This document shows positions 9,380 to 60,274 of a DNA stretch of 64,000 nt, piece after piece; the stretch's first letter is position 1, and the number at the start of each line of letters is the position of its first letter. A program made the position numbers and the translations under genes. The notes under the pieces are model-generated. The model searched no databases. It was given only the letters and a program-made list of their open reading frames with translations, and was not told the DNA's origin. Source of the DNA: Clytia hemisphaerica (lineage: Eukaryota > Cnidaria > Hydrozoa > Leptothecata > Clytiidae); NCBI GenBank assembly GCA_902728285.1, contig CACVBU010000953.1, positions 248,001 to 312,000 of the forward strand, written 5' to 3'.

Positions 9380-9575
9380 ACATGTTTTTTTTTATAAGAA
9401 CAAACTATATAAGAACATAAGGCTTCGAGGCCCAAAAATTTAAGAACATTCTAAGAACATTCTTAAAAACATGCATTTTATGAAGAAATTACATTAAAAT
9501 GCTCAAAAAATCCAAAAAACTAAGAACATCCGAAGGCTTCGAAAATTTTTGACGTTCTTATAAAAAAAACGTGTA
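9380..9575. mobile_element. MITE, TATAAGAAC family (word AAGAAC)
   Basis: Ends ACATGTTTTTTTTTATAAG and CTTATAAAAAAAACGTGT are inverted repeats. Inside, AAGAACA recurs at least five times in both orientations. Related copies are at 19220-19463, 43864-44221, 45898-46171 and 49630-49882. Confidence 0.8.
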
Positions 9576-9675
9576 CTCGATGTAAAAAAACAACTTGAAT
9601 CTAGTTTCCAATGTATAACATATGTGGGTTTCAATTGGTCAACATAAGAAATGGTTACAATCAGTTAGTTATCTA

Positions 9676-9728
9676 TATAATAATAGCCGTATGTGTCTGA
9701 AGCCTTTCTCTGCAGCGTTTTTGTTTTC
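9676..9728 (+). repeat. Dispersed 50-bp conserved block, copy 1
   Basis: ATAGCCGTATGTGTCTGAAG followed by CCTTTCTCTGCAGCGTTT also occurs at 58764-58805 with one difference over about 40 bases. The flanks do not match, so it is a short conserved fragment of an unknown repeat. Confidence 0.75.
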
Positions 9729-9954
9729 GCTAGCGATTTTAGCACTCGCGGGCCTTTTATTATGAGGTATTGTTTCATTCAAAAGCAACAGTTCTCTGCC
9801 TGCTTTATTCAAAATACGAATACAGTCAAATCCCCTTGTTAAAAATCATTAACACATTACAAAATTAATTGCAAAATAGAGAAAAAATAGCATTACTCAA
9901 AGCACATTTAACAGTCATCATCTAAATTTTAAGATACGAGACAATTGACGAGAC

Positions 9955-10165
9955 CCCCACAGTCACCTTTCAATTAACGCAATCACGCTAAAAAAATTTT
10001 CAAATCATGTTATCACGAGTTATATTTCCTTTTTATCACCATCACGTTGATCACGTTGGTTCCTCCGATCACACAATCAATCACGCACTTTAAAATCTTA
10101 AATCACGAAATCACGAACTTGAAAAAAACGCCAATTACGCCATCACGAAAACCGCTTTTGGGAAT
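9955..10165. repeat. ATCACG-rich low-complexity repeat
   Basis: The hexamer ATCACG or TCACGA/C occurs about a dozen times in 200 bases (AATCACGC, TTATCACGAG, CCATCACGTTGATCACG, AAATCACGAAATCACG). Similar TCACG/CGTGA-rich stretches are at 24222-24465 and 42360-42490. Confidence 0.7.
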
Positions 10166-10301
10166 TGAATCACCGCGCAGTAGGGATAAAGGCTTATTTT
10201 CGAGATGGCTATCGAAATATATTATAAGAAAGTGTTGTTTTCAATTAAGCTAATTAAATTTAGTGAAAAGCCGTCTTTGATGACGGCTGCGACCTCTAGT
10301 T

Positions 10302-12232
10302 TCATCTAAATGCTGAATTCTTTGGTAGCAACAAAGCCCATCCAATGTACGGTCGAATTGTTGGAACATTTTTCGAATCTTTATTTCCTTCTTCGATTGT
10401 AAATCCAACTGGCCCTGAAAAAGATGTTTTTTTATGTAATTTTACTGTTTATCTTGATCTTTGACTTTTTTCCCTGATTTCAAGTATGATTCTTTTTGAT
10501 TTCATTGAAATCAGAATTTTCTTATCCCTTTATGACATCTCATTGTTCTTAGCTTGTTGAGGCTGGTTCTTAGCAGTTATTGTTACGATAGCTTACCTGC
10601 AACAAGTGCACTTTGTTCTCCTTTGGCTCGTGGATCGTATGTTATTTTCATCGGCACGCTCGTTATCGAACTTTGCATTTTTGATAAATTATCGAAGCCA
10701 CGTTCATCTAGATTTAAAGAAAAGCTTACTTACGTACTTGCTGAGGGTGCAATATATCGCAGAAATAATTCATTTCCAAAAGTTTTGTACTTTTGTGAGA
10801 GTGAGAGTTAACTCAAAGAAACTTCAAAAATTTAAGATTTAAAGGTTTTTAAATAAGATTGATATCGTTTGCTTACTCATAAATTTTGATTCACAATCTT
10901 TTTTCAAAAAGTAAAACCTTTAATAAAAAATCTGATTCTGAAACACTGTCGAACGTCCAATTCTAACCAACTTCAACCAAATCGTATCATTCTGAAGTCT
11001 CTAGCCTGCTCCAAACTTTCAGTCTCATTTTGGGGCTAACACTCGTGACCGCGCTCTTAAAAATCAAAATTTTGAAAAAATGAAAAAAAATTACCCCAGG
11101 GATTCGCCCAAAGATTAATAAGCTAAATTTCAGCCGAATACGACCAGTTTTGAAGTCCCCAGCCTGTCACAAAGGAAGTTAACAATTTTTTTTACATACC
11201 TTGTAGAAATTGAAAGATCCAACCCATGTATTTACATGCGCCAGAGCCATGGTTGTCCGTCGAAATAATTCTGCTCCACCAACCAATATCTAGATTGCCT
11301 TCAAATGTTGCCAACAAATTCACATACACTTCCCTTACGATCTTAAACCAATAAGAAAGCTTCAAGACATCTTCAAGAGGTTTGAGCAATTCAGCAAGTT
11401 GATCAATTTTTGTAATGAGTGATTTCCAGTCTTCTAATGTTCCCAGCATTTCGACCCCTTTGATCCCACACCGAGTTACCATGGTATATTCAAAATATTC
11501 TTGTAACGAGGACATTATATTGATTTGGGAGGCGATTTTTGTTATCTGAGTCGAAGTGGAAAAACTAGCAGTCATCAGGTCGTTGTACTCTGGTTTTTTG
11601 ATGAGATTTTTTATGTTTTGTGAAAATTCTTTAAATAACCAGACATAATCGACTTCATGAATTGTCTCTGCGTTAGTAAAAATAACAATTTCTTTTTTGC
11701 CTTCGAAATCAACAAAGAAATCTCTAACTTTGTCCTCCTTAGCATTATCATTGATTTTCCTACCAACACGAATTGCAACAGGGATCCAAAAATCATCAGG
11801 AGAAATTTTGAGATTCCAATGATGATTATATGCTTCCAAAACAGCTCCAAGCAACCCTGCATCACCAGTCGCATAAACTTCATCTTTTGTTCCCAAAGTG
11901 ACAGTTTTATCGCCTACAACGTTAGGTTTTTCTGACTTCTGTGTTTTTACCTTTGGGACGAGCGGAGAAATTCTTCGACCTCGAATTCTTGGTGTTGGCA
12001 TTTCCTTTTGTTCAGCTTTCTTTGAATACTTTTCGAGGTATTTTGAAGCTTCTCTTTTAAGTTGTTTACTTGACAATTCGTTATTTCGTTTTTCCATTTC
12101 ATCATTATATTTTCTCGTCCTTTTCCATTCCCATCGACTGCCTGCCTTGTAATCAGATAACAACATGGGTGTTTTATCCTCCGGCAAACCAAGATCAATG
12201 TACTTACCTTTCTCCAATGTAGTTGCTTCCAT
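10302..12232 (-). CDS. DUF4419-domain protein, three exons, 418 residues
   Basis: Exon 1 is 12232-11200 (donor GTATGT, phase 1), exon 2 is 10707-10597 (acceptor TAAATCTAG, donor GTAAGC, phase 1) and exon 3 is 10414-10302 (acceptor TTTTTCAG, stop TGA at 10304-10302). Junction phases match and the 1257-nt frame is unbroken. Residues 1-120 are charged and probably disordered (PRIRGRRISPLVPK). From about residue 130 the DUF4419 landmarks follow in order: AVLEAYNHHWNLKISPDDFW, the FVDFEGKKEI block, MTASFSTST, YFEYTMVTRCGIKGVEMLG, TLEDWKSLITKI, GWWSRIIS, SGACKYMGWIFQFL, SSITSVPMKI, SALVAGPVGFTIEE and TIRPYIGWALLL. The last two come from exons 2 and 3 and confirm the splicing. No signal peptide or membrane segment is seen. 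The molecular role of DUF4419 is unknown; length is normal for the family. Confidence 0.9.
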
Positions 12233-12470
12233 TTTTCAGTGTTATAAAGCTCTATTTTGAAACAAGATAATGCGTTCAATAGTCTTCAAAGAAGTTTACT
12301 TTCCTTAAAATATTTTCAAAGTACTTTGACAACAAGAAATACGTCATACGTCATTTCTTTGAAATGAGAGAAAGAAAATCCAAATGTAAAATCTATTTCC
12401 TTTTGAGTTAATTAGGAAACGGTAATGATCTTTCAATGTTCTTACACGTCAGTGAAGTAATTAAGCAAAA

Positions 12471-12612: not shown

Positions 12613-12639
12613 TAACAATCTTTGGGATTGATTTTTTTT

Positions 12640-15370
12640 TTGAAGATTTACAGTCCAGGCACACCAGGGCCTCTAAACCGATCTATCGTCTACAATTACA
12701 AAGATCTTGATTCGTAGCGCAATGGATGTTCCATCCATGCCTTGGTTAGTTCTTCTTTGAACGCTTTGATGCTAGTAGCGTTAACAGTCTCTTTTGGTAG
12801 CTGATTCCTTGCTGTCACACATCGATAGTAAAACGACTTTGTCACCTCTAAATCCATCGTCTGCAAAGTTTGGTATCAGTTCGTAATCGTGAATTCGAGT
12901 TGGACGCATACTGCGAATAAACTTTCCAACTGTGGTGTCCTTATCGTAGAAGTACAAGTGTTTGTAGATCTGAACCATGTCTCCGAAGTGTCTTCTGAAT
13001 TCGAGAGAAGGCAAGTCAAGTTTTCGTAGGCGCTGCTCGTATGGTAGATTACTTCTGACCATCCTAGTGGCACGTCGTTGAACGCCCTCAATTAAGTTGA
13101 TGTCCTTACGTAGTTTTGATGACCATACAGATTGGGCATACTCGAGATGAGGCCGGACAAAGGTTGTGTACAAAGTGAAGAAAGTTTTAATGCTAAGGTC
13201 TTCGAAACCTCTTCTGATGACTCCTAGAATGGAATTTGCTTTTTTCACTTGTTTTGATATGTGTTCTTCAAAGGATAAGTCAGAGTCTATCAGAACACCG
13301 AGATCTTTTTCAACGAAAACATGTTCAAGTTGTTCACCTCTAAGTGAATAAGGGTGCGCGTGGACAATATTCCAATATTTACCGAGAGTGAGAACGTGGC
13401 ACTTATCTGGGTGAAATCTTAATAGCCAATCATTTGACCACTTTTCAAGTTTGTGTATGTCTTGTTGGATAGCCAATGAGTCCTCAATCGAGTTGACTTC
13501 TCTGAAAGTCTTCGTGTCGTCAGCAAATAGGAGAATCGAAGACAGCACATCGTCAGGGAGGTCGTTGATGTAGATCGCAAGGTTTTGGGCACCCTTGTTT
13601 TTATAAATTGGAGTCACATGTGCCATCTTCCATCAACTAACATTTTCTGGTGTATATCATCCGGACCGAAGGATTTACTCACGTCCAGCAATTTTATCCG
13701 TTTTCTCATTATATCTTCTGTTATGATGATGTTCTCAACTTGAATCTCCGTTCGTGTAGGAAAATCGGGAATCGTTCCTGGGGGCTCATTGGTAAAGACG
13801 CTGCAAAACTGTTTTTGTAGGATGTTAGCCTTGTCGAGATCGTCGTGTTTAATCGATGATTTGTCATCAGGGTTTTCAAGTAGTGGTGAGACTCCGCTTG
13901 ATGACTTAAGTTTAGATCTTACATGAGACCAAAATATCTTTGGCTTTTCCTTGGATTTATCACAAATGCTTTTTTCATAAGTCCTGTGGGCCTTTGACAT
14001 CAAACGATTAAAACGATTTCTTACAATAGTGTAATTGGCACGATGACGACCTCTGTCGAGAGGTGCAGATCTTAACCACCTTCTATGGAGCGTTTTTTTA
14101 ACTTGATTTCATCTTGAAGATTCTTATTAATTGGAACTTTACCTTTTTTCCTCCAAAAATCGTTTCCAACTTCTTTCAAAGGGACAAATCGATTTCTGAA
14201 ATCAATGAAAACTTTCTTCAACGATTCCCAAAGATCTTCCACTGATTTGTTTACAAATGCATTTTTGAAACCTTCTTTCCATTCCCTCAACGTCGGGTCA
14301 TTTTTCATTGATTTGAAACTGGCCGAAGCATAGATGAACCTTGTTTGCGTAGGTTTGGAGTATGCGTAGCAAACGACATTGAAAGCCAACGAACTATGGT
14401 CACTATTTCCTAGTGGTCTTAGGTAGTCGAGATTCCTAATTTGGTTTTCTTCGCCTGTTAAGATCAAGTCGATGAGGGATGGGTAATCAGTTCCTCTACA
14501 TCGAGTTGGTTCATTAACATGTTGATGGAGATATGCGTCTCTCAAAGCATTTAAGAATTTCTCTTCTTTGCTATCCTCCAGATGCGGGGTGGTCCAGTTT
14601 TCCCAATTGATTGTTGGAAAGTTGAAATCACCTAACAAACATTTGTGCGAATATTTCTTGTTTAATGCAATGGACTTGATCAATAAGTTTAGGTTGTTCT
14701 TGTTTTCGTTGGAGGACGTAAATCTAGTTGGGCTTAGATAAATGCATGCAACAGCGAGCAAATCTTTTCCTGATAGTTGTACTTCAATCATGCAAACTTC
14801 ATTGAAAGTCACTGGAGGCTTGGCATCGATTACCAAGTGTTTAATGGATATATGAACAAATATGACAATGCCACGCCACTTGATGATCTGTATCTAGTTT
14901 AACTTGGCTAGCGATTTTGTAGTCATCGAATTCATATTCATGTAGCTCCTTCAAGGCACCTGCTTTTGTCTTAGCTTCGCAGATTGCAATTATATGGGGC
15001 TTTTTTCCCGGGCCATGGACTGTAATTCTTTTTTCTTAAACGATGTTAACTGATCTGGATTTGTATAAAGGATCTTCATTTCTTGTTTTGGAGCGGTTTT
15101 TTCCCCTATATTTTGATGATGTTTGTCTATGTTAGGTTTTCGGAGAAGGAAACATTCTTCTCTGTTGGTGATTACGCCATTGATGATTTTTTCTTGAGTG
15201 GCACCATCTTGATACTGAACCCGTTTTTTGAATTACCACGGACGCGATATATTCCTGATGTTGGAGATTTTGTTGCATTCAATTCTTTAGCTTCGATAGA
15301 CAATTGGTGCACTTTCTTACGCAAATCAGGCATAAGGTCTATGAGTATTGTGTTTATAAAAAAATAAGTC
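12640..15370 (-). mobile_element. CR1-like LINE, reverse transcriptase core deleted
   Basis: Reading on the minus strand, a linker (KILYTNPDQLTSFKKKE near 15070) leads into an APE-type endonuclease with LLGDFNFPTINW, SLIDLILTGEE and LGNSDHSSL (14836-14072). A middle segment follows (14003-13614: KPKIFWSHVRSKL, SKSFGPDDIHQKML), then the reverse transcriptase end with AHVTPIYKNKG joined directly to AIYINDLP and LLFADDTK, thumb sequences, and a C-terminal tail ending with a stop at 12698-12696. About 35 residues are missing before MAHVTPI and more than 100 between NKGAQ and AIYINDLP, where the catalytic Asp-bearing and QGS-type motifs should be. Frame shifts occur near 15190, 15000, 13625 and 12835. 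It cannot encode an active enzyme. The strand and motifs fit the CR1/L2 group; the exact clade is not resolved. Confidence 0.88.
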
Positions 15371-15379
15371 TAAGTTCAA

Positions 15380-16150: not shown

Positions 16151-16151
16151 A

Positions 16152-16296: not shown

Positions 16297-16299
16297 TAT

Positions 16300-17430: not shown

Positions 17431-17432
17431 GA

Positions 17433-18133: not shown

Positions 18134-21100
18134 ATGGACGCTGACAAAAAAGCACCACCACCTAAAGAAATTTTTGAGAATGGTGGAGAAGAAGGTATTT
18201 TACGAACCAGTTCTTTGATATAAAGTGTATTCACTTAAAATTCCAGATTATTCCTTATAGTTAGTTTATACAAATTGTCCCTGTCACCAGATAAATCTTG
18301 ATGTTTAAGCGTTTTAGGAATCTCTGCAACAGAAATTCTTATGTGATGTCATGTTGTTGTTTTTCTTCTTTCTTCTACTTTCGTTCTGTAAGTAAACTCT
18401 ATTCCTTCTTAGATTTCAAATATACTTCCAAGAAAAAGTCTTTGCATTTAACGACTACAATGGGCTCTTCAAAAAAAAATTTTACATGGGGGGTGGAGGA
18501 TATATTGTCCGGGGGGGGTAGCAAAAAATCATCAAAATTTGCCTTGTCCGGGGTGTAAATTTGCTCCGTCCGGGGGTAATTTGGTGTGTCCGGAGGGTCA
18601 GCAGATGCTTTTTCGGGAGGTAAAACCTATTTTCCGGGGGGCCAAAAGTCACCCTGTCCGGGGGGTAAATCACTAAAAATTGTTATATCCTCCACCCCCA
18701 TGTAAAATTTTTTTCTGGAAGAGCCCAATTTACATTTTGCTGAAAAAACTGAAGACACGACTAGCTAGCATCACAAATAAAGCACCTTAACTCTTCTTAA
18801 AGTCTCTTCTTTAAGAACTTCGTTACATTTTCACAATTTCTTACATTTTAGTGTTCGATGATCCGGATGGCATTTTGAAGAAGAAGAAGAAGAGCAAGAA
18901 TAAAGCGGTTCCTTCTTCACAAACTGTAAGATCGTCTGCCACAATCAACATTATACGAACTCTCAAGGTTCGTCTGTCTCTGTCTCGTCGTCCGTACGAT
19001 GATCGCAATAAACCAGGGGTTTCCGATTCGAGATGCCTTGGAGTTTTTACAAGATACTTCACTGATTTGTCATTTAAAGTGAAAGAGATGACGCGTTCTT
19101 TAGAAAAAGTAATAAGATTCTTTTATTACATCTTAACGACCAACCAAATCAAATAAGAGCTTGTAAAAACTCCAGCTCGTCCCTTCAATTCAGACCTCTG
19201 CTCCTGTGTTCTCTTCAAGAATGCTTTTTTATAAGAACAACCCAATTTTTTGAAGCCTTATGACGTTCTAAATTTTTTTAGTTTTAAGCCAAAAAATGTT
19301 TTAACCTCTTCTTATTTTCACTATTTTGTGGGTATTTTTATATGCCATTTCCTTAGAAATCAGGTGTTTTAGAGTCAGCTACTTAATCCTTAGAATATTC
19401 TTAAAATTTTGGCCATCGAAGCCTTAGTTCTTATATACTTTGTTCTTATAACAGAAAACGTGTATACACGTAAACAATCGCCCTTACTGCCATATACTAA
19501 ACATTATCTTTAAAAATTTGTCCAAATTTGACCATCTTTTATAATAAATTTTATCTCTACTCTAAGAGTCGTTTTTAAGTCATATCCAATGCAAAAAGGG
19601 CTCAACATTTACATTTTTAATCTAGATAAAAAAGGAGCAGAAAAATGTCCTGGTTATTATTGACGTCAGCAACATTGTTTACTTTAGCTTTAAATTCACA
19701 AAAACTCAGAGATCAGTCTTTTTTGAAAAATGCTGATCTAGAAAATACTTTAAAAGTCATCACTTATTAGGCGAATAAACACATGATTGTCACTGTGTAC
19801 TTGAATTGACTTGAAATTTCTTGTCCGGAGAAGTATATGCAAATCATCTGTTTTTACCTTTAAAGTTTTAAAAATTTTGCCTGGATGAGTGAAATGCAAA
19901 ATTAATGTATTTTTTGCAGGTATATTCAATAACCATATGATCTTTTGTTAAAGATTGACTTTGTGATTATCAAACTGCCTCAAAAGTTTAATCCATAAAA
20001 GCCTTTGCTTTTATAGCGTCTAGCTAAGGAATTTAATGTATTTCTTTTTATCTCTTTATGAACAGGATGTTGTGACAAGTGAAGATGAAAAGGGAATGGC
20101 AATGAAGGTAATCTTACCATCTTCTTCTGCTTTGTGCATCTAAACATTTTCATCCAAGAAAAAAAGAAGATTTTGTTTTCATTGAAAGTTTTTCTTAATC
20201 TAGGATTGGTTTCTTACTTACTTTCTCACTTATACACTCCCTTCTCACAGAACCGATGGGATTTTTCATGACACTGGGAAAAATCTCTATAGAGATCGAT
20301 ACTATAAATTCTTTCATGATTTGGCATTTGAATTCCATTGTTTTCAAGTCAGAAATATGTATGGAACAAATAGCACAATATTTTGCAGTGAGGATTTGTT
20401 TATTTGATTGTTTTCAGCAAGGACAAAAATATTATGGTAAATTTTTCCAGTGGGAAGAGGTTCCACTGGGCCAGTGAAAAAGGGGTGTATTATACACCCC
20501 TGTCTCACAGCTGGTGGAAATTCTTCCAGCATTGGGGATGGAAATAATACACTTCTTTTCATTGAATTTCAAATGGGGGATGAAGACAAAGTCGATTTCT
20601 TAGTAGGGCTGAAGTTTTGGGGTATTTTTCCAACGGGCACAAAATTTTGGTCAAATTTTTCTGTGACTGGTTTTCATATCTGAAGACTTTATTTCTAGAG
20701 AGTATTGGAGTTAGAGAAAGAGCTTTTGGACATGCGCAGTTCGAAGAATGAAAGTGAAGAAGAAGTGAAAGGGTTGAAATATGAATTGGGTGGTCTTCAA
20801 AAGAATTTCAAAGAGTTAAAAGATTCATCAGCAGCATCTCTGGAAGAATTGGAAAAAGTAGGTTTGTCTCAGGGGCCTCGGTTCCACTTTGAATATGATA
20901 GGGCCATATATACTGATTAATCAGTAATTTTTGCATTTCAGTCCTATTAGTTCGCCTAAAGCACGTCTGTTTTAAGGTTATCAAACAATAGATTTTTTTG
21001 TTTTAAAAAAGTGACTCCTTGCTCCCCTCTTTGTTATTACAGTTCGAAGTGACGCGACTTTCAGATAAAAACGATGCTCTAAAGAAAGAAAATACTGACC

Positions 21101-25676: not shown

Positions 25677-25981
25677 ACACCCCCTTCTCACAGACCCGGT
25701 AGGATTTTTTTCAACCAGTGGGGATAAAAATAACGGACTGAAACTTGATGGGGGTCGATATTCTCATATTTTTCATGGCTGGGAATTTCAATTCTTTTCA
25801 TTTCAAGTCAATAAAATTCAGCGGGGATGGGAAAAAATAGTAAATATTTTGCAGTGAGGATTGGTTTAATGTATTATTTTCAGTGGGGACAAAGGTTGGA
25901 GGATGATTTTCCACTGGGGACCATATTTTGGCCAATCTTTCCATTGGGAAGGATTTCCAGTGGGGCTGTGAGAAGGGATAC
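25677..25981. mobile_element. MITE, CTCACAGACCC family, 305 bp
   Basis: Ends ACCCCCTTCTCACAGACCC and GGGGCTGTGAGAAGGG. Words CAGTGGGGA/TCCACTGGGGA recur inside. It lies about 100 bases after the FYVE stop codon, beyond its probable 3' end. Confidence 0.85.
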
Positions 25982-26565: not shown

Positions 26566-27606
26566 TCATTTCATAGACTTGCTTCTTCTGAATTGTTCGA
26601 AGATCTGTCTTTTCTTTCTCTTCCCATCCTCCCAGACTTCTTGGTGAGATTTCTGAGCAAACAGAACTTCAAATTCATCATCTCGACTACCAGTGGCTGT
26701 AGTGGTTACGATTGCTTTATGGTGATCAAAACCATTGGTGAACTGGTAATCTCTGGAAGATTGATGGCCACCAGAGACTGCTCCTCCATAACTTACCACA
26801 GCATTTGATCCAGGGTATGTATTATAGGATGACTGGTACATCGAATTCCCTGCATATGCACCGTTTCGATGATTCTGGTTGTTCCCAAATTGCCAGGGTT
26901 CAATATTGACCACATCTGAGGTTGTACCAACGCACCTGTTAGCATACTGCTTTACCATTCGTTTCGCTTCCTCCTTCTTCAACTCGATAAACTTAGACAA
27001 CTCTTGAGACATTGTCCAATGGATCTGTTCAGTATCGGTAGATATTGGATATACATGCCGTTTCTTCAGAATAGGTTCTTCGAAGATGCATCGGTTCATA
27101 TCATGCCAGAGTTGTTCAAATTCGATTCCTGTTTTACATCTCACCATTCGCATCATGAGGTTTTGGAACTCTTTGGCAGATCTGATATGTTTGTGTTTTC
27201 TCTCAGCTGGTTGTAACACAGCGTACAGACAAACTAGGAATGTTAGCGTTGCCACTAACCCAGCAATGATGAATATAGTCACCGTTTGTAGTAATGCCAA
27301 CAGAGTTGCAACAGCTCCAAAGATTGCCATAGCTGACAGAAGGATTTTATTGATTTTATTCCAGTAGCGTGATGCCCACATATGACTTTTGTATTTGGCT
27401 TCGGTCTTCTGGATGAAGGTTTTCCATTTCTTGGTCATCTCCTTGAGGACTTCTTGTCCGATCTTCTTGAGCTCAATATCTTTATCCGTCTAAAACAAGT
27501 TAAGAATGAAATAATTGAGACATTTGAAGGATATTACGATTGAGTTGTTACCGAAGATTTAAGAATATCATCCATTTTTTTAATGATGGACTCAGACAAA
27601 TCCCAT
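26566..27606 (-). CDS. Two-TM protein resembling a SLATT-domain effector
   Basis: The main exon is 27489-26566 (acceptor TTGTTTTAG at 27490), reading TDKDIELKKIGQEVLKEMTK onward to a stop. A 62-bp intron (27551-27490) with GT/AG borders joins it in phase to MDDILKSS at 27575-27552. The frame stays open upstream (RWDLSESIIKKM) to a candidate acceptor at 27607, so the true start may be in a further exon; ATGGAG plus GTGAGA at 28061-28054 is one option. The protein has an N-terminal helix, a hydrophobic hairpin of two membrane segments (ILLSAMAIFGAVATLLALL and FIIAGLVATLTFLVCLYAV), then a conserved-looking helical stretch (HIRSAKEFQNLMMRMVR, FEQLWHDMNR, EEPILKKRHVYPI) and an Asn/Gly/Ser-rich tail. 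This order matches the SLATT two-TM effector architecture, known mainly from bacterial nucleotide-signal conflict systems. Assignment is by layout, not by a search. Confidence 0.72.
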
Positions 27607-29149: not shown

Positions 29150-30085
29150 GGACTTTTGGTCATTTTTCATGATGATATAATTGGTGGTTGTCCCTTTTGG
29201 ATTTTCAAACTTGACAATGAAACTTTCAAACACACAGCCATTGATACACAGTATTTTTTGTGGTGTTATGCATGGCTGAAATTGATCCTGTTTTGGACTT
29301 TGTTATTGTCGTATTCATCATCGGCTGGCGACCGTTCCTTTTCACTTTTCAAACCCGACACAGATTTTTTACAAACATATCACTATGAGAATTCAATATA
29401 GGATACTGAAACACAGTTCCTGTGTAAATTTTAACAAGATTGGAGAAATTTTCACAGTCACAGACAGTGTTATGGCTGAAAATAATCATTTTTGGTGACC
29501 ATTCCTTTTGATTTTTCAAACCCGACACAGATTTTTTACAAACATATCACTATGAGAATTCAGTAAAGGATACTAAAACACAATTCCTGTGTAAATTTGA
29601 ACAAGATCGGAGAAATTTTCACAGTATTATGGCTGAAAATGATCGTTTTGGACTTTGTCGTAATTTCGTCGCGGCTGGCGACCATTCCTTTTGATTTTTC
29701 AAACCCGACACAGATTTTTTACAAACATATCACTATGAGAATTCAGTAAAGGATACTAAAACCACATTCCTGTGTAAATTTAAACAAGATTGGAGAAATT
29801 TTCACAGTAATTATGGCTGAAAATGATCGTTTTTGGACTTTGTCGTAATTTCGTCGCGGCTAGCGACCATTCCTTTTGATTTTTCAAACCCGACACGGAT
29901 TTTTTACAAACATATCACTATGAGAATTCAGTAAAGGATACTAAATCACAATTCCTGCGTAAATTTGAACAAGATCGGAGAAATTTTCACAGTGTTATAA
30001 CTGAAAATAATATTTTTTGGACTTTGTCGTAATTTCATTGGCTGGGGCGACCGTTCCTTTTGAACATTTTTCAAACGCGAAACAG
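29150..30085 (+). repeat. Minisatellite, 167-185 bp unit, about 5 copies
   Basis: The block CCCGACACAGATTTTTTACA starts at 29354, 29521, 29704 and 29889, with a diverged fifth near 30070 and a partial one before 29350. Each unit also carries ATATCACTATGAGAATTCA, TTCCTGTGTAAATTT and GGAGAAATTTTCACAGT. The inner copies are most alike, as expected of unequal crossing-over. Confidence 0.92.
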
Positions 30086-30210
30086 GTTTTTTCCAAATAT
30101 AACAATATTTATTACATACACACTATTGAACCATTTTATTTGGTTTATCCTACTCTTCTCTAAGTATTATCCCAGCAGAAAAAATAATGCTTAGCTAAAA
30201 ACCCGTGGCT

Positions 30211-30550
30211 TAATGGAATAAACTTTTGCGGGATTTAATTTTGCTGATTTCGTGGATTTGGGTGTCATCCGCGAAATTAAGTCTCAATGGAAATTTGGAA
30301 AGGCCTCATCCGCGAAATATTTTCTAAACAAAACTCAAAATTTGTCAAACAAATACTTTTTGAATGTTTACTGGCATCAAAGAAGTGCTAATAATGTGTA
30401 TTTCAACAACAAAAATGCACGATTTGACAGTTAAGTCACAAAATCGTGAAAATATTGCCACCCGCGAAAGTAAGTCCCTGCAAAATTTTTTAAATTTCGC
30501 GGGTAGGCCCCAATCGTGAAATTAAATCCTCGCGAAAGTTTATCCCATTA
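30211..30550. mobile_element. MITE, word CCGCGAAATT, copy 1
   Basis: Ends TTAATGGAATAAACTTTTGC and GCGAAAGTTTATCCCATTAA. The interior repeats CGCGAAATTAA, CCGCGAAATATT and CGCGAAAGTAAGTCCC in both orientations. It is about 80% alike to 37218-37580, including the central ATTTGTCAAACAAATACTTT-type segment. Confidence 0.88.
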
Positions 30551-31835
30551 ACGAAATTTTATCCGGACAATCAAATCAACGGCGCATCATTGCTTCGCTA
30601 TTGGCAAGTTTAGAAATAAATAAATTAATAAGAACTTGGAAATATTGACTTCTAAATGTTTATCTCCTTTAGCTCCAATTTTGAACTTTTTAGTTGAGGA
30701 TGAGTGGGCGGGGGATGGGCTTGGTTGTTTAAGCAAGAAAGTGCATGTGTAATCACTTAGAAGAGCTAAACTTCCAGCTGGTTTATTCATTCGTTAAGAT
30801 TATTTCTCATACTCGCTCTGCAATAGATTTATTGCTTTGCTTTCTGATCTGTTCTGATTAGTAGTTTGTGGGCAACGTTCGAACACAACTAATTCGTTTG
30901 TTTGATACTAGATTTTAAAGTTGTCAAGTTCTTTCCTCACAATCCATGATTGTCTTAATTGGTTCTGGATTGATAAATAGTTTAAACATTGCAAATTCTT
31001 TCAGGGCTCAGACTTAAGCCCAGCAACCTAAATCTCTTGTGTCCTGAATTAGATTCATCTACAAACTTTCAACTTTTCAACAGGAATTGTGAGGGAGCTA
31101 TTTTGTGTGATATCTATGATATCGATATTTAGTAAAATGAGTTGTGTTTTATACAACTACTCTCGAGTGAAAAATTCCGAGAGTAAAGGTAGATTGTTGA
31201 TTTTTATCTTTTATTATATATTATTTATTATATATTTTTATTATATTTATTATGCACAGTAAAAAAAGAAATTTGTAGTTTTTAAATTATTATACTAGAT
31301 AATATTCTATTAAAAAGTGTAAACAATATCATAACAGAAAATTTTGATATCAAGAATAATTCAATACATCTCATGCCCATTGCTAAGACCTAGCCGTTTA
31401 AAACTCTGTCAAGCTTAACATAAGGGGTATAACTAATGAAGTATAAGCCCGGAGGGATAGAATTAGGCTTATACTTCATTGGGTATAACGTATTTTTTAA
31501 ATGGTCCAATTTGTTACGTTGTCGAATTTGAGGACTTCTTTTTGCAAAATTGATTTGAAGAAAAGCTACCCTATTTCTATTAACCTATACTAAACATCAC
31601 CCACGGTACGAGATAAAAATCCCGCTTTTTAGTGAAGTGCTCGATACCTTAGTACACTCATTTTTTTATAAGCATAACGTTTATAAGCATACTGAAGCTC
31701 AAATTTCCAGAAAAATTAAGCATATAACAAAACTTCGCTTTGCGAAAACGGAACGCTCGTTCCGCAACCCCTTTCATGTTGATTCTCCTTTTTATTCACA
31801 TCAAAGCCGTATGTTTTTACATAATCGTTTTGAAG
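30551..31835. other. Gene-free stretch with one strong hairpin
   Basis: At 31427-31487 GGGTATAACTAATGAAGTAT is followed after about 18 bases by the mirrored ATACTTCATTGGGTATAAC segment, a 15-bp perfect stem AATGAAGTATAAGCC/GGCTTATACTTCATT. A TATTTATTATA run is at 31213-31250. No exon recognised. Confidence 0.55.
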
Positions 31836-36649: not shown

Positions 36650-36970
36650 CACCTCTTTGTCACAGACCCTGTTGAACCCTAACCCCACTTTAAAATTTGG
36701 CTAGAATTTCGTATTAGGCGGGAAAAATACCCTAAAATTTTAACCCCATTGAGAGCAAATTGACTTTCACATTCCATCCGGGTTTAGAATTCAATGTGAA
36801 AAATTACACTCCAAAACAATCCCTATTGGATTTTTTATCTTGGAACAATAGAATTTCTATCCCCATTGTGATTTTCATAGATATCTTTTATTCCCACTGT
36901 GGGATAAAGTTGCACCAAGAATGTGGGACAAGGGTGTACCCTGAATGTGAAACAGGGGTGTACCCTGGAA
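36650..36970. mobile_element. MITE, CACAGACCC family, 320 bp
   Basis: It starts CACCTCTTTGTCACAGACCC and repeats ACCCCA, CCCCATTG and CCCACTGTGGGA words; the right end ACAGGGGTGTACCCTGG is duplicated. Confidence 0.75.
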
Positions 36971-37217: not shown

Positions 37218-37580
37218 ACTTTAATGGGATAAACTTTCGCGGGGATTAAATTTCGCGGATTTCGCAGATTTGGGTGTCATCCGCGAAAATCCGCGAAATT
37301 AAATCCCAATGGAAATTTGGAAGGGCCTCATCCGCGAAATATTTCTAGTCAAGACTCAAAATATGTCAAATAAATACTTTTTGAATGGTTACTTGCATCA
37401 AGAAAGCGCAAATAAGGTGTATTTCAACAACCAATATGCATAATTTTACAGTATAAAATCGTGAAAATATTGTCACCCAATAGTGCCACCCGCGAAATTA
37501 AGTCCCCGCGAAATTTTTGAATTTCGCGGATAGTCCCAACTGCGAAATTTAATCCCCGCGAAATTTTATCCCATTAAAGT
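37218..37580. mobile_element. MITE, word CCGCGAAATT, copy 2
   Basis: Ends ACTTTAATGGGATAAACTTT and AAATTTTATCCCATTAAAGT are mirror images. The words CGCGGATTT, CCGCGAAATT and CCCCGCGAAAT occur about twelve times in both orientations. Confidence 0.9.
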
Positions 37581-37701: not shown

Positions 37702-37994
37702 TACTCTAAGGTCCCGAATAGTAGGGGGGTCTGAATAAAAGGGGGGGTCCGAAATTTTTGCAAAATATAATAAACGGGGAGGTCTGAATAAACGGGGGGG
37801 GGGGTCTGAAAATATTTAGGTAAATAAAGGCTAAAATCAGGCTATTTAGAGCAAAATAAGGGTCCTTCTCTTTGACAGCTGAAAATATTCTTAAAAACTA
37901 ATAAACGGGGGGGGGTCCTAATAAGAACGGGGGGGTCCGAAATATTTTCGAAAATTAATAAGCGGGGGGGACGTCTATTCGGGACCTTAGAGTA
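37702..37994. mobile_element. MITE, word GGGGGGTCYGAA, 293 bp
   Basis: TACTCTAAGGTCCCGAATAG and CTATTCGGGACCTTAGAGTA are mirror ends. The interior consists of about eight copies of GGGGGGTC(C/T)GAATAA/AAT separated by A/T spacers. Confidence 0.92.
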
Positions 37995-43863: not shown

Positions 43864-44221
43864 TACACGCTTTTTTTTTATAAGAATACACTTTATAAGA
43901 ATGTCCATGATGAAAATGGCCAAAAAACTAAGAATATGCTAAGAATATCACCATCATGGAACTATCCTAATAAAGCTAAGAATGCTATTTTTAAAGCATT
44001 TTCAATTATAAATTATCAATTATCCCCAAGTTAGGCTCACTCCTTTTATAAAAGTGCCATTTTATACTTTAGACGTATCTACTAAATGTTAAATCTAGTA
44101 TGAATTAGGTTCCTAACCTAAGAATGTGCTGTAAGAATATTTTTGGATGATTCTCCCAAAAAAGTTAAGAATATCCATGATGAAATGGATTTACACCATT
44201 CTTATAAAAAAAAAGCGTGTA
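43864..44221. mobile_element. MITE, TATAAGAAT variant, 358 bp
   Basis: TACACGCTTTTTTTTTATAAG and its mirror CTTATAAAAAAAAAGCGTGTA are the ends. AAGAATA and CCATGATGAAA words recur inside in both orientations. Confidence 0.9.
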
Positions 44222-44490
44222 TTTATGATTAAATAAGCATTTTAGACTCATTGAACTGTTTTCTTTGAAAGCTTTTGTTAGAATACAATAGCTATTTATA
44301 AAAACAAAGGAAATTTTCGGTTTTTGCTCACTTTGAGCATGATGAGTGACGTCATCAAAAATTTTTTGTCAAAAGTTACCTCATATGACAAGGATGTTGT
44401 GTGCCGAATTTCATCTAAATTAGATCAAAAGTTAAGAGTCCCCAGTTTTGAACTTTTGATTGTAAAATCAAAAATTGATGCAAGTGGCTC

Positions 44491-45293
44491 GGGTTGGTCT
44501 AAAAAGCAGGGTAGCCAATTGGGGTAGCCAATTGGGCTAGGTTGTGGGGTACCTAAATATTTTACAGACCAGAATAGAAATACCGAAAATGAATGTATAG
44601 AACCACATTTTACTGACCAGGGAGCATGAATCTGATTGATACTTAGATTGATCATGTATGATTCAAAAGATAAACAAAGATATAAATTACCACGTGTTAA
44701 TGCACGAGGAGTAAGAAATAGAGCTTCATTATAATAGAGCTATTTCAAAAGACTTTTTGTACCTATTATAAGCTGCCATATTTAAAAATTTTGGAAGGAA
44801 TTAATTGTTTGAAACATCTAAACATGATTTAAATTAAACAATAGATTCAATAACAAAGGATTGTTAAGATATGAAAAGATTAGAGATCATATGGCCCAGA
44901 GGCGATTCCAAAGCTATTATCATCGAATTACAGCTTCACGGAAATAACAATTAAAAACATAAATAAAATCTAAATCTAAATTATTAAAAACTGTTTTGTA
45001 TATATTTCTTATTCGGGTCTGTAAAGTTTCAAACGAAGCCAAGAAGGAAGACAAAATGGCGCCAGGTCTCTTGAGAAGTAACAAAGTTCGGTACCTTTGG
45101 AAAAAAAGGCTATTGTGTCTGAAGTTTGAAAGGAATCTTAAATTTTATTACATGGAATCATTAACAAGATGTTGTGATAGTTATTTTCACATAAAAACAG
45201 GTTTCAGATTTCAAAAGTTTAGGCAAAAAGAGGTACCCCATAACCTAGCCCAATTGGCTACCCCATTGGCTACCCTGCTTTTTAGACCAACCC
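44491..45293. mobile_element. Mutator-like element, 803 bp, 9-bp target duplication
   Basis: GGGTTGGTCTAAAAAGCAGG at the left is mirrored by CCTGCTTTTTAGACCAACCC at the right, and the arms continue through GTAGCCAATTGG words for about 80 bases. Both ends are bordered by AAGTGGCTC (44482-44490 and 45294-45302). A 9-bp duplication fits a Mutator-like transposase. No transposase frame inside. Confidence 0.92.
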
Positions 45294-45302
45294 AAGTGGC
45301 TC

Positions 45303-45897: not shown

Positions 45898-46171
45898 TAC
45901 ACTTTTTTTATAAGAACCAGTAAAATCTTTCTGAGGCTCGGCTGCTCTTATTTTATTGGCACTTTGAGCCTCAAATTGTTCTCATCTCTTAATTATAGGG
46001 TGTAATTGAGGTATTTTAGGTGCTATACCCAATTTTTACTACTTTAACCCCTAATTTGTTTTAATTTGAGTCATTTCAGGCTCAGCATTATTCTTAAATT
46101 GTTCTTATTTTTGGTGATTTTGAGCCTTATTGTTCTTATAAAATTGTTCTTATATAAAACAAAAAGTGTAT
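45898..46171. mobile_element. MITE, TATAAGAAC family, GAGCC subtype
   Basis: TACACTTTTTTTATAAGAACC and TTCTTATATAAAACAAAAAG are the ends, with TTGTTCTTA and TTTGAGCC words inside. It is about 75% alike to 49630-49882, so these two form a subfamily. Confidence 0.85.
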
Positions 46172-49629: not shown

Positions 49630-49882
49630 TACACTTCTTTTTATAAGAAGCAGTATGTTTTTATGTTTTTTGTCACTTTGAGCCTCAAATTGTTCTCATT
49701 CTGTTCTTATTTATAGGATGTAATTGAGGTAATTTAGGCGTTATATCCAATTTGTAACTCCTTTGACCCATTGCTTAGAATTGAGTAATTCCAGGCTTAG
49801 CATTGTTCTTAAATTGTTCTTATTTTTTGGAGATTTTGAGCCTCATTGTTCTTATAAAATTGTTCTTATAAAAAAAGTGTAT
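49630..49882. mobile_element. MITE, TATAAGAAC family, GAGCC subtype
   Basis: TACACTTCTTTTTATAAGAA and its mirror TTCTTATAAAAAAAGTGTA are the ends. Words TTTGAGCCTCAAATTGTTCT and GTTCTTATTTTT match the 45898 copy closely. Confidence 0.88.
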
Positions 49883-49997
49883 GAGGCTATAAGATTTCGT
49901 GGGAATTCCCTCTTTTTCTCTAATGACCTTCATTGTCGATCGCTGGAGCGGCAAAAGTCAATGTTTTTCGCTTCACCTGCCCAACCTTTAACTTTTA

Positions 49998-50264
49998 GCG
50001 ACCGTAGCACAAAGGTAGAGCATCCAGCTGCGGTGCGCAAGGTTGTGGGTTCGATCCCCAGCCGGGTCATACCAAAGATTCCCAAAATGGTACTTGATGC
50101 CTCTCTGCTTGATGCTCAGCAACTAAAGAGACGGATCAAGGGTAAGTGGAGAAATCCAGGGAAAGGAGTGGCGCCCTCCCCTACCTTCGGGTAGACAGCT
50201 ATACGAAAAGGGAGCCTTCGGGTCGCCCTCGACTGCGGTCGCAAACTTGCTTGCTTGCTTGCTT
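49998..50264 (+). mobile_element. tRNA-derived SINE with (TTGC)n tail, 8-bp target duplication
   Basis: The head 49998-50068 has pol III A box (TAGCACAAAGG) and B box (GGTTCGATCCC) at tRNA-like spacing. The body follows with GC-rich CCTTCGGGTAGACAGC and CCTTCGGGTCGCC, and the tail is four TTGC units. AACTTTTA borders both ends (49990-49997 and 50265-50272). The intact duplication indicates a recent insertion by LINE machinery. The partner LINE is not known. Confidence 0.9.
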
Positions 50265-50505: not shown

Positions 50506-50788
50506 CACAACCCTGTGTCACAGATCCACTGGGACCCAACCCCACTGGAAAATTTGGCAAAAATTTCATCCCCGGTGGGAAAATACCCTGGAATTTCAGC
50601 CCTGTTGGGAAATTGACTTTGATTTTATCCCCATTCAAAATTAAACGATTAAAAATTGCACTCCAAAACCATCCCCTCTGGATTTTTTAACCTTGGAACG
50701 ATAGAATTTCTACAATCATTGTGCTTTCAATAAGAATTTTTATCCCCAATGAGGGAAAAATTCCACCGGGGCTGTGAGACAGGGTTAT
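50506..50788. mobile_element. MITE, CACAGACCC family, 283 bp
   Basis: ACCCTGTGTCACAGATCC and GGGGCTGTGAGACAGGGT are the mirror ends. CCCCACTGGAAAATTTGG, CCCGGTGGGAAAATA and CCTGTTGGGAAATT are successive copies of one word. Confidence 0.9.
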
Positions 50789-51528: not shown

Positions 51529-51529
51529 A

Positions 51530-53942: not shown

Positions 53943-53944
53943 AA

Positions 53945-54916: not shown

Positions 54917-55222
54917 GACACCCCCTTCTCACAGACCCAATGGGACCCCTTCCCATTGTAAAATTTGGCCAAAATATTGTTCCCAGTGGAAAATTATCCT
55001 CCAATTTTTGTCCCCACTGAAAATAATCAAATAAACCAATCCTCACTGCAAAATATCATGCTATTTTTCCCATCCGTACTGAATTTTCTGACTTGAAAAC
55101 AATGGAATTTAAAATTCCCAGCCATAAAAGATAAGAGAATTTCAACCCCCCTCGAGTTTCAGTCCGTTATTTTCATCCCTACTGGTTGAAAAAATCCTAA
55201 TTGATCTGTGATGAGGGGGTGT
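54917..55222. mobile_element. MITE, CTCACAGACCC family, 306 bp
   Basis: ACCCCCTTCTCACAGACCC at the left and CTGTGATGAGGGGGTGT at the right. It matches the 25677 copy in reverse over its whole length (for example TTTTGCAGTGAGGATTGGTT there, AACCAATCCTCACTGCAAAA here). Confidence 0.9.
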
Positions 55223-55224
55223 AT

Positions 55225-57255: not shown

Positions 57256-57257
57256 AA

Positions 57258-57973
57258 GTAGAGTCTCTTTAACCCTTTAAGTGCCAATGTCGAGCATATT
57301 GGACATGGTCTATATATGAGGACGAATCCCTCCTGCAATTCCCAGTTTCAATTAGAAATCGTCATTTTTCGTCTAACTCGTAGGAATCGGATTATGCTTC
57401 ATGCTCAAGCTAAAAAAAATCAAAAGTGATTCAAAAAGTTTAAAAAAATGTAAAGATTTGACAAAAATCTTTTTTGAGATTTTGACCGTTTTTTGATCAT
57501 TTTTGACCAACAAGTGATCCAAAAATCTCCAAATTTGGCTATGTTTTACTTCATTTTGTCATCCAACGAATTGATTTGAAGTTTTACCACTGGGTACCTT
57601 TTCGTCATTCAGTCAGGTCCACGCAGCTGGCCTAACTGCTTTCGTTCCCTAATCTAGCCCCTTAGCTGCTGCCCACTACGCCCTTCCTAAATCAGACGAC
57701 GTCAGAGAAGAAGAATAAACTCTAAGCTATCCAAAGAGCTTCTAATTCCTTATGGTTCCTGAAATATAAGCTTTTAAGTCTTTTAAGTTTGATCTATAGT
57801 GATTTTCTTAAAAAAATTAGAAAAAAGGACCGTAGCACTGAAAGGGTTAACTCGAAAAATTTTTATGACCCTGTCAATTAACAAGGCCTTATGACCTTTT
57901 TCCATAACACAAAATTTCCTTAACTCGAACAAATTTGTGTTCCCATGCATGTTTGAGTTATGGAGACTCTACA
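57258..57973. mobile_element. Short inverted-repeat element split at a TTAA
   Basis: GTAGAGTCTCTTTAACTCGA, obtained across the nested element, is mirrored by GTTATGGAGACTCTAC at 57957-57973. The outer element alone would be about 138 bp. Confidence 0.7.
57273..57846. mobile_element. piggyBac-type MITE, 574 bp, second copy (inverted)
   Basis: TTAA borders at 57269-57272 and 57847-57850. Ends CCCTTTAAGTGCC and ACTGAAAGGG. It matches the 3412-4028 copy in opposite orientation (AGTTTCAATTAGAAATCGTC, CCACTGGGTACCTTTTC, AGCTATCCAAAGAGCTTCTA). Confidence 0.92.
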
Positions 57974-58304
57974 ATTGTATATTTAGAAAAATTGTAATTG
58001 TAAAAATTGTCTGAAAAAATCTTTTTAGTTCGTAAATATTTGGAGGAAGAAAATATGTTTTTGTTATATTGTAAAAGCTTCAGAGCCCACCTCGTCCTTA
58101 TACACCTCTTACATAATCGCAAAATGCTCAAGAAATGAAATTTATATTTGTTTTAAGAGGTAACCCCTGCTAGGTATTCTTGATTTTACCCTGAAACACT
58201 GTTTCAAAAGATAGGGTTTAGTGGTTCATTTCTGACCCTAATTCGAAGGGCTGTAACTTTTTAGAAAGAAAGATATGTGATATCTGGCCCAAATATTGTA
58301 CAAA

Positions 58305-58638
58305 TGGGCTTTTCCAGAAATAGTCCGTGCCCCGCCCCCCCTGTTGAGGATATTGGATATCTAGGAGGTTAACGATTTTTGTTCAAAAATGGATATTCAG
58401 GGGGTTAAATATCTACAAGCGAGCGGATATCCAGGGGGTAAGTGTCTTTTCAAGTAAAAACTACGATATCCAGGGGTAAGCATCTTAATAAGAGAGAATA
58501 TCTAGGGGGTTGAGCATATTTTTAACAGTGGATATCCAGGGGATCTTTACTAATAAAGTAGGATATCCAGGGGGTTCGATACTTCGAAAACCAATATCCT
58601 CAACAGTGGGGGTAAAATTTTTTTTCTGGAAAAGCTCA
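58305..58638. mobile_element. MITE, word GATATCCAGGGGG, 334 bp
   Basis: TGGGCTTTTCCAGAAA...TGTTGAGGATATTGG and the mirror CCAATATCCTCAACAGTGGG...TTTTTCTGGAAAAGCTCA are the ends. GGATATCCAGGGGGTTA-like words recur seven times. It shares its outermost end with the 18461 element. Confidence 0.9.
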
Positions 58639-58763
58639 AGTCTGATGTCATGATTTTTGAAACGGAGGGAAATCTTCATTTTTCATCATTCGTTCAAAAA
58701 CCTTTAATTTATTAGATTATTCTCCTTGTAAATATGTTTCCAAGGGTGTCATCAATATAATTA

Positions 58764-58805
58764 TAGCCGCATGTGTCTGAAGCCTTTCTCTGCAGCGTTT
58801 TGATT
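58764..58805 (+). repeat. Dispersed 50-bp conserved block, copy 2
   Basis: ATAGCCGCATGTGTCTGAAG then CCTTTCTCTGCAGCGTTT, as at 9676-9728. Confidence 0.75.
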
Positions 58806-58809
58806 TCGG

Positions 58810-59915
58810 AAAAGAATAATAAAGGATTAAAATCAATAGCATTTCTCTTAGACCAGCCTTTGAGTAATTTTTATTTTTTCACAAGTATGAATCATTTAAT
58901 TTTTACTGGGTTAAAACAACTCTATTTATACAGGGTGTCCGGAAAAAAGTATCGAGTTCGAACATGATGTAGAAGGGAATGCACGTGTTTAACAAAATGT
59001 AATGCCTCGCCACCTTTTTCATCAAATTGTAACACTTTTGCGTGTTTCATTTTTCAAATGTTTGATGAAAAATTTTTCAAGTGGCAGCAGACATTAACTT
59101 TCAGTTAACGTGATCAAAAATCTACTATTTGAAATTACAGGTTATATTTTAACGCAAACCCGGCCGGCATGAGGTACCCGCATTCTAGACTTTTATCACT
59201 TTCGAGTCAGATTTAGCCTACGGCATTTTTTCTACGCAGTAACGAAACAGAAAATCCCGGTTTTTGGTGAGGTAGTCACTAATTCAGATTAAATAGGCAC
59301 TCAAGAGATTATCGAATAATGAATTATTGCAATTATTATCAACTGAAACAGGAAATCGAAACCAAAAAAAAAGGTAATCAACGTTACAATTAGTACAAAG
59401 CTCACTTCCCCATTAGTACCTATTAATATTTCTCACTAATTAACTTTTTCCTTAATATATTATTCTGTATATTTTTTTCAGATAGCAGATGATCGTTCTT
59501 TAAGTACATTTTATTTTCATTTTCCGTTTCATTTGTCAATACTCGGAATTTGACTTTTTCACCTCTCGAATATCATCAAAAAATAATTTAAACATAAAGA
59601 TCCTTAATAAATTTATTTAAGCAACTAAGCCGCTTGAAACAGACCAAAGTAAAAAAAATCTCGGAATTATAAATCTTCTCTGTAATATGTAAACTACAGC
59701 GTTAGGCAGTTAGAGTTTTTTGAAAGGCGAGTCGATTTGTTTCGGAAATCGATTTGTTTGTGGTTTCTTTTCGTAAATTTCCATAATAGGAACCATAATA
59801 AAACCTTTTCTGTAGACGGTAGAACAATCTGAAGTGGTCAAAAATATTATTTTAATGTTCTGAAAGAAGTAACTTTAGATAATCAAAAACTTATAAATGA
59901 CTGGGTATTTACTGC
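58810..59915. other. Gene-free stretch
   Basis: AT-rich, no exon. GGGTGTCCGGAAAAAAGT at 58932 recalls a transposon end, but no mate was found. Confidence 0.4.
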
Positions 59916-60274
59916 TACTTTAATCGTAGAAATTTTAGCGAGACTAATTTTAGAGTATATTAGCGAGCCAGAAAAATCTTGATTTTTTTTGGATTTATTT
60001 CTAGCGAATCACGATTTGAAAAGATTTCGCGTGGATAAATTTTAGCGAATACTCGTATTTCATTATTGACTGAATTCGTTTTCTAGCATTTTTTTGCACT
60101 GAAACCATTCCTATTGATAAAAATGTATCAAGGCAATATAACCAGAAATTTCGCGTGGATAAATTTTAGCGATCTGTCGATTCGGCGTGTTTTAGCGAGA
60201 TTTATTTTAGCGAAAATAGGGAAAACTCGCTAAACGCTAAAATTAGTCTCGCTAAAATTTCTACGATTAAAGTA
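59916..60274. mobile_element. MITE, word TTTTAGCGA, 359 bp
   Basis: TACTTTAATCGTAGAAATTT...TAGCGAGACTAATTTTAG is mirrored exactly at the right to ACGATTAAAGTA (about 38-bp arms). TTTTAGCGAA/G words occur about eight times inside, both orientations. Confidence 0.93.

Follow-up and report, generated by a model that had tools for sequence, protein, structure and literature searches.

Elements and end types in the window

The stretch analysed here (the window) comprises 64 kb of contig CACVBU010000953.1 (positions 248,001 to 312,000; assembly GCA_902728285.1) from the hydrozoan Clytia hemisphaerica, and all results rest on this one window. It is AT-rich (31-39% GC) and contains a frame resembling the endonuclease of long interspersed nuclear elements (LINE; 14072-14893), a forkhead-domain frame (63359-63748) and 106 inverted-repeat pairs, of which 25 are shown. 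Our subject is a set of 17 short word-array elements with six types of inverted ends, whose interiors repeat a short word (Table 1); they are named by family letter and first coordinate. A preliminary description made from the sequence had proposed a shared plan for families with unrelated ends, in which the terminal repeat encloses 6-12 copies, in both orientations, of a word also present in that repeat. The 15 elements it named all exist, at or a few bases from where it placed them, and G_18462 and H_32683 are added here. The catalogue comes from reading the sequence and from a search for inverted ends flanked by TA, which returned 47 pairs (many mutually nested) against 5-8 in four Markov-randomised windows. 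Reading, not the TA search, yielded several elements, for example most of A, all of D, and H.

In length (193-361 bp, below 600 bp), paired ends, target duplication and occurrence in several copies, the elements conform to miniature inverted-repeat transposable elements (MITEs). A and D/D2 each have five copies in the 64 kb, B and G two each, and C, F and H one each. Among stop-to-stop frames of at least 120 aa, one (49733-50194, +) overlaps an element, A_49632, and it has no Pfam match. TA, the target duplication of the Tc1-mariner (IS630) group, flanks eight of the ten elements of A, B, C, F and H (4/5 in A, 1/2 in B, and C, F and H); some of these were found by the search that required TA, and a 2-bp duplication alone cannot exceed chance. 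Near the ends of four of the five D elements are direct repeats of 5-7 bp (ATCTAGA, p=0.007; ACCCTGA, p=0.002; TATAGC, p=0.02; CATAT, p=0.083), the end positions being free by up to 4 bp. In the fifth, the flank TTATACAC is ambiguous owing to an adjoining second D-type fragment. This second D-type element or fragment (ACACCCCTGTCTCACAGC...) occupies 20491-20670 and directly adjoins D_20235. The right end of D2_36650 appears to be doubled, with two 24-bp units at 36898-36967 and ACCCTG after each. The flanks of the G elements (CAAT in G_18462, CAA in G_58306) do not rise above chance. Target duplications differ between families, and the ends thus probably derive from more than one kind of transposon. 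The ends are indeed unrelated between A, B/C, D, F, G and H; B and C, however, have an outer CTTTAAT in common, and the G pair combines common outer ends with different words.

No A element has the CACTA ends of the CACTA/CMC group (A2 reads CACTT; A1 reads CACG, CATG or is decayed) or its 3-bp target duplication: four of the five have TA, and a 3-bp match at two of them, obtained only when an end is shifted by 1 bp, is no better than chance. Long inverted repeats of the Foldback/Galileo type are absent: the 25 pairs shown (of 106) include six word elements, with arms of 24-50 bp, and words lie predominantly in one orientation. VANDAL/MULE elements encode a transposase and VANC and have a target duplication of about 9 bp. 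The elements of the window do not encode such proteins because they are just 193-361 bp long, and their duplications are TA or 5-7 bp. PIF/Harbinger elements, considered for the G pair, have a 3-bp TWA as target duplication.

All but one of the pattern scans of viral contigs for element ends and word pairs gave no hits. The remaining one gave eleven loci (L001-L011) with two to five TAAGAAY words within 250 bp of the hit, whose paired ends were not examined and which were taken as chance occurrences. In a scan of prokaryote genomes, two loci (L012, L013) had no partner end within about 900 bp. B_37219 had no match among plasmids, and Rfam (gathering threshold) and tRNA searches returned no matches. 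When end and word strings were sought in the literature, only TTTTAGCGAGA was found in print, and it was judged unrelated from the listing.

Table 1. Word-array elements of the window (x, number of copies)
Family	Position	Strand	Features
A1	9381-9573	+	TA both sides; right end CACGTTTTTTTTATAAGAAC; TAAGAAC at offsets 0, 15, 46, 57, 126 and at right end; second word AAGGCTTCGA x2
A1	19219-19462	-	left end decayed; A layout kept; second word AAGGCTTCGA x2
A1	43866-44219	+	perfect 24-bp arms including TA; exact words TAAGAAT 9/9; second word CATGATGAAA x2
A2	45900-46168	-	end CACTTTTTTTATAAGAAC; mostly TAAGAAC; second word GAGGCTCAAA x2
A2	49632-49879	-	sister to 45900; TAAGAAC words; second word GAGGCTCAAA x2
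B, decayed	30210-30551	+	CCGCGAAATT x10 at <=2 mismatches
B	37219-37579	+	TA both sides; ends CTTTAATGGGATAAAMTTTCGCGG; CCGCGAAATT x11 at <=2 mismatches
C	59918-60272	+	TA both sides; ends CTTTAATCGTAGAAATTTTAGCGAGAC; TTTTAGCGA x10 at <=1 mismatch
D, decayed	20235-20487	-	word CCCCACTGG
D	25678-25980	-	word CCCCACTGGAAAA; 30-bp period
D	54919-55221	+	word CCCCACTGGAAAA; 30-bp period; flanking repeat ATCTAGA
D2	50508-50787	+	period 29-30 bp; flanking repeat TATAGC
D2	36650-36936	+	words diverged; flanking repeat ACCCTGA; right end in part duplicated
F	37704-37992	+	TA both sides; perfect 18-bp ends CTCTAAGGTCCCGAATAG; GGGGGGTCYGAA x6, single orientation
G	18462-18726	+	right end GGGCTCTTCCAGAAAAAAATTTTAC; GTCCGGGGGGT x7 at <=3 mismatches, single orientation
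G	58306-58637	+	outer ends like 18462; ATATCCAGGGGGT x7 at <=3 mismatches, single orientation, 31-39 bp spacing
H	32683-32937	+	TA both sides; ends GTKCGGA; ATCCCCCCTTCTT x6 at <=3 mismatches, single orientation

Word enrichment, orientation and periodicity

Enrichment of end-derived words was assessed with 9-mers of the outer 40 bp, nearly single-base ones excluded. The best of them was counted in the interior with one mismatch on both strands, against 200 dinucleotide shuffles (p uncorrected). At p<=0.05, this end-word test was passed by 10 of the 17 word elements (9381, 43866, 45900, 49632, 37219, 59918, 25678, 50508, 37704 and 32683) and by none of 11 other inverted-repeat elements. For these ten, the proposed excess over shuffled interiors and the recurrence of an end word inside the element are borne out; A_19219, B_30210, D_20235, D_54919, D2_36650, G_18462 and G_58306 fail. 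For both G elements, words of the outer 40 bp show no enrichment of the interior word (p=0.96 and 0.22), and its presence in the ends is not clear. The best end word of 50508, AAAAATTCC, differs from the word named earlier. Two elements at 3411-4029 and 57272-57847, with left ends ACCCTTTRAGTGCC beside TA, have interiors without end-word excess, as does an inverted-repeat element at 44488-45296 whose ends carry tandem GGGTAGCCAATTG.

A second test counted the commonest 10-mer, with two mismatches, across the entire element (p uncorrected). An excess at p<=0.01 was found in 11/17 word elements, 2/11 comparison elements and 0/90 background windows, and at p<=0.05 in 14/17, 6/11 and 2/90, respectively. 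At the looser threshold, the whole-element test poorly discriminates word elements from other inverted-repeat elements, partly because paired arms score as repeats. Since 6 of the 11 comparison elements pass it, the end-word test is the discriminating one. When 510 windows of 250 bp were scanned blind, six reached z>=3, three of them word elements and three in or beside a 185-bp tandem array. This array (3.3 copies, 29493-30108) lies just upstream of B_30210. The signal is clear element by element and not overwhelming in the blind scan.

Counts of 12 words in the 17 elements form a nearly block-diagonal table in which each word is specific to its own family. The exceptions are the loose D word (three mismatches), with 4 copies in G_18462, 2 in B_37219 and 26 in the window outside the elements; the G word GTCCGGGGGG (two mismatches), present once or twice in other G-rich elements; and CATGATGAAA (one mismatch), with 8 copies outside the elements. 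Exact TAAGAAY has a density of 22.9 per kb in the A elements and 0.8 per kb in the remaining window. With one mismatch allowed, the observed count in three of five A elements (19219, 43866 and 45900) is not above the maximum of 100 shuffles, and hence the exact words are the stronger evidence. Mere low complexity combined with post hoc choice of words would fit the fact that just half of the significant scan windows are word elements, that some words are cheap in shuffles (mean 2.4 for G_18462, and 2.7-5.5 for TAAGAAY with one mismatch) and that comparison elements show whole-element excess at p<=0.05. However, this explanation is largely contradicted by the family-specific count table, by the background windows, none of which reaches p<=0.01, and by the uniform failure of the comparison elements in the end-word test. 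We consider it very improbable.

Copy numbers fall within the proposed range of 6-12 in A (8-12, one mismatch), B (10-11), C (10), F (6), G (7) and H (6), but not in D, with merely 1-6 copies per element at up to three mismatches. With the 30-bp arms left out, and with the major orientation set per element so that chance alone exceeds half, interior words stand in the major and minor orientation at 81:11 (81/92) over all elements. The ratio is 38:0 in D, F, G and H together, 27:4 in A, 10:5 in B and 6:2 in C. The words thus occur in both orientations, as first described, in B and C, whereas a single orientation dominates elsewhere.

These ratios bear on template switching or gap repair in folded-back elements, which would copy end sequence inward; the former had been put forward in the preliminary description. 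In favour of it, A, B, C, F and parts of D and H have words matching their ends, and both orientations occur in B and C. In B_37219, the interior contains inverted copies, at 81-89% identity, of 28-32 bp patches from the left end (pairs I21 and I22), and 5 of the 17 interiors are more stably folded than their shuffles (z below -3: 9381 and the B and G pairs). Such copying, however, predicts both orientations and drifting positions, and it is therefore disfavoured in general by the overall bias and by a layout fixed across diverged A elements (see below). Signs of it are kept in B, and as the origin of the arrays we regard it as improbable. An interior hairpin function as the common theme was rejected, since fold scores are mixed (z from -4.6 to +0.6, with those same five below -3). 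Among the comparison elements folded, four of eight fall below -3, the lowest at -15.4.

Several interiors have cryptic periods. In D, a period of about 30 bp (29-30 bp; family-wise p=0.003 in 3/5 elements) is a better-defined feature than the word copies. Others are found in G_18462 (about 21-24 bp, p=0.03), G_58306 (33-37 bp, p=0.04), B_37219 (15-16 bp, p=0.03) and C (14-16 bp, p=0.053). The A elements have irregularly spaced words (0, 15, 46, 57), and no significant period was obtained for any of the five. Spacer similarity was computed for 10 of the 17 elements, spacers below 8 bp being dropped. In half of these ten, namely G_58306 (p=0.45) and four of the five D elements, no residual similarity between spacers was found.

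These data allow the interiors to be read as degenerate tandem repeats, that is, minisatellites formed by slippage from an end-proximal unit, with core similarity due to chance or age and binding not needed. The cryptic periods, residual spacer similarity in C and F and the single dominant orientation agree with such an origin. It does not accord with words that stay alike between unrelated spacers in four D elements and G_58306, nor with the aperiodic A family, and neutral decay fails to explain a whole word set that switches a base on a constant layout. Moreover, the periodicity test is loose: background windows reach p<=0.05 in 9/60 cases and p<=0.01 in 1/60, and one of four comparison elements tested (17433) gives p=0.01. 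We consider a repeat-based origin unlikely, if less so than copying within a foldback.

Layout and word change within families

The five A elements were put in like orientation before their layouts were compared. In all five, measured from the left-end word, words lie at 0, 14-15, 45-48 and 56-59 bp, and only 1 of these 20 words, in 19219, has a mismatch. On the right side, a word lies 32-33 bp from the right-end word in four of five elements, with one mismatch in two of the four. Coincident offsets number 36, compared with a mean of 7.0 and a maximum of 19 under random placement. Common descent would account for the shared positions; what calls for explanation is that the positions stayed steady while the spacers diverged.

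On this layout the words themselves have changed. A_43866 carries nine TAAGAAT and no TAAGAAC, whereas the other four A elements together carry 18 words ending in C and 3 in T, plus 2 in G (Fisher 1.5e-5). Words within one element are not independent, and the p value thus describes the contrast and is not a strict test. Between A_43866 and A_9381, the last word base differs in 6/6 shared words, while the spacers are identical at 82/144 positions (57%) and have C/T differences at 13/37 C-containing sites. A general C-to-T mutation process in A_43866 was rejected on this comparison of 13/37 spacer sites with 6/6 words, which is a small sample. For the joint change of nine 7-bp words, selection among many copies seems more plausible than gene conversion on such short tracts. 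The second A word, in two copies per element, also differs by subfamily: AAGGCTTCGA in 9381 and 19219, CATGATGAAA in 43866 and GAGGCTCAAA in 45900 and 49632, with an extra one-mismatch copy of GAGGCTCAAA in 9381. The A words have thus changed in concert, as seen in the uniform TAAGAAT of A_43866, set against 18 of 21 words with C in the other four, and in the switch of the second word.

Words also differ behind shared ends in other families. The G elements share their outer ends, and GTCCGGGGGG has 6 copies in G_18462 and 2 in G_58306, compared with 0 and 7 for ATATCCAGGGG. B and C have the outer CTTTAAT in common and differ in their words (14:0 vs 1:6); this pair is weaker evidence because the two interiors are not clearly homologous.

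Further features of the window are an identical 30-bp sequence (ATGTGTCTGAAGCCTTTCTCTGCAGCGTTT) at 9691-9720 and 58771-58800, 3' of A_9381 and G_58306, and a long near-palindrome at 2143-2847 with arms of 193, 90 and 58 bp that are 78-91% complementary. An open frame at 11192-12235 (-) matches DUF4419 (E 4.8e-54), and another at 26566-27489 (-) matches SLATT_4 (E 6.4e-4), under Pfam's cut-off.

Putative binding-site arrays and related systems

The words are specific to families and lie mostly in one orientation, the A layout is fixed, and words have changed in concert in A and G. Our favoured reading, which we hold to be somewhat more probable than all others combined, is that the elements are non-autonomous cut-and-paste MITEs, that they belong to several unrelated families, and that their interiors are putative binding-site arrays for a co-evolving DNA-binding protein, kept by selection. 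Family specificity, a layout conserved between diverged spacers, a single orientation and concerted change all support selection for many binding sites, one of the mechanisms suggested at the outset. From these features we infer a protein, its likely identity and an advantage conferred by many sites. The catalytic part of a transposase would read the outer bases, and a sequence-specific DNA-binding module would read the repeated word. This module might be a domain of the transposase or an element-encoded partner such as TNPA of CACTA or VANC of VANDAL elements. Additional sites would increase occupancy and the pairing of ends, and copies with more matching sites would thus be amplified. As the preference of the protein drifts, the words of a successful lineage would be re-selected to the new form, which would produce a concerted word shift. 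In B, C and F, the arrays probably began with the duplication of longer units, which later eroded toward the bound core.

Several observations weigh against this reading. Among the listed frames of at least 120 aa, no gene for a transposase or partner was seen in the window. The C-to-T word switch rests on one element, A_43866, whose interior aligns weakly with that of A_9381 (z=2.0), and the interiors of B and C show no homology as aligned (z=0.9), with z=3.4 when reversed. B retains the inverted patches of its own end described above. Spacer similarity persists in C (p=0.002, three spacers) and F (p=0.008, two), as well as in G_18462 and A_43866 (p about 0.04) and D2_50508 (p=0.022). Longer-unit duplication thus probably supplied some of the copies, with the words kept afterwards. 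Finally, the authors of a study of mPing and mPong found no promoting interior sequence common to both and suggest that these interiors do not act in a sequence-specific manner (PMC9921582).

The words might instead be bound by host factors of transcription or chromatin, or help the elements to escape silencing, apart from transposition. Plant MITEs that amplify sites of a host factor are known, as with E2F in Brassica (PMC12595863). In the window, however, seven or more different words occur, and each is almost restricted to a single family or subfamily, whose own ends often contain it as well. Family-encoded proteins therefore fit better than a common host factor, to which we give little probability.

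Multiple binding sites are already known in CACTA, VANDAL and Galileo elements, and the window elements vary this theme. VANC21 motifs (9 bp) of VANDAL21 in Arabidopsis form high-density, single-orientation arrays in non-coding transposon DNA; the C-type motif occurs in both subfamilies and the T-type in one only, and the authors propose that protein and motif co-evolve via tandem repeat formation (PMC5735166; related work in PMC10398659). The window elements resemble VANDAL21 in their dense one-way arrays of a short motif and in having C-type and T-type forms of it. VANDAL21 elements, however, are plant elements with several genes and with motifs in introns and flanking non-coding DNA, whereas those described here are 193-361 bp long, have words that are often part of the ends and duplications of TA or 5-7 bp, and have a putative partner protein. 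In CACTA elements (Spm/En, Tgm), terminal repeats are conserved and reiterated subterminal motifs bound by TNPA-like proteins diverge by subfamily (PMC2613891). The combination of a conserved outer repeat with short motifs that diverge between subfamilies is thus shared, but CACTA elements are large, with motifs near the ends, a 3-bp duplication and CACTA ends, and in the window elements the motifs run throughout the interior and the target duplications are of other kinds.

Sleeping Beauty and Bari (Tc1-mariner) use a TA target site and have two sites per end. They resemble the window elements in having extra transposase sites inside the ends (PMC3688188, PMC9921582), but here up to 5-11 sites are spread through the element. 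In Galileo, the THAP domain of the transposase binds several repeated sites in the long ends (PMC3688188), and multiple binding sites have been called a convergent trait of different superfamilies (PMC3573991). Galileo/Foldback elements are thus similar in their internal repetition and several transposase sites; they differ in their kilobase-scale inverted repeats, compared with short ends and a mostly one-way interior. Stowaway and mPing are likewise small non-autonomous elements in which the interior affects the transposition rate; interior sequences of mPing alter transposition, and the authors cite TnpA sites of Spm, although the accessible part of the paper describes no reiterated end-derived word (PMC9921582). 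CMITE of Acropora corals is a MITE family with conserved interior and variable ends, but it is about 100 bp long and uses TTAA sites, and no word array is described in the portion available (PMC2872659). Herves has a short transposase-binding motif at both ends (PMC3143072), and in the ATon families of Aedes the interiors are unique and the extreme ends similar in some (PMC3422177). A narrow literature search found no description of word arrays that fill the interiors of several unrelated MITE families, nor of concerted word switches in animal MITEs.

Taken together, the feature is real, if partly misdescribed at first, and the interiors are most likely arrays of sites bound by co-evolving, family-specific proteins of transposition or anti-silencing. 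A broader and more tentative idea, which we consider possible but not probable, is that a two-module recognition code has arisen convergently in many unrelated families. One module, the conserved outer end, would serve cutting, and the other, an interior array of a private, fast-switching word (two in A), would be read by a fast-evolving element-encoded DNA-binding protein. The elements would then correspond, in an animal, to CACTA/TNPA and VANDAL/VANC, as MITEs reduced to site arrays. If the interpretation as binding-site arrays is correct, MITE interiors would record the drift of DNA-binding specificity of a transposase or its partner, each subfamily providing several samples of the preferred site, and the co-evolution of transposon proteins with their sites would be testable from sequence alone. 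Furthermore, it could account for related MITEs ceasing to cross-mobilise and would offer a route to match orphan MITEs with autonomous elements.

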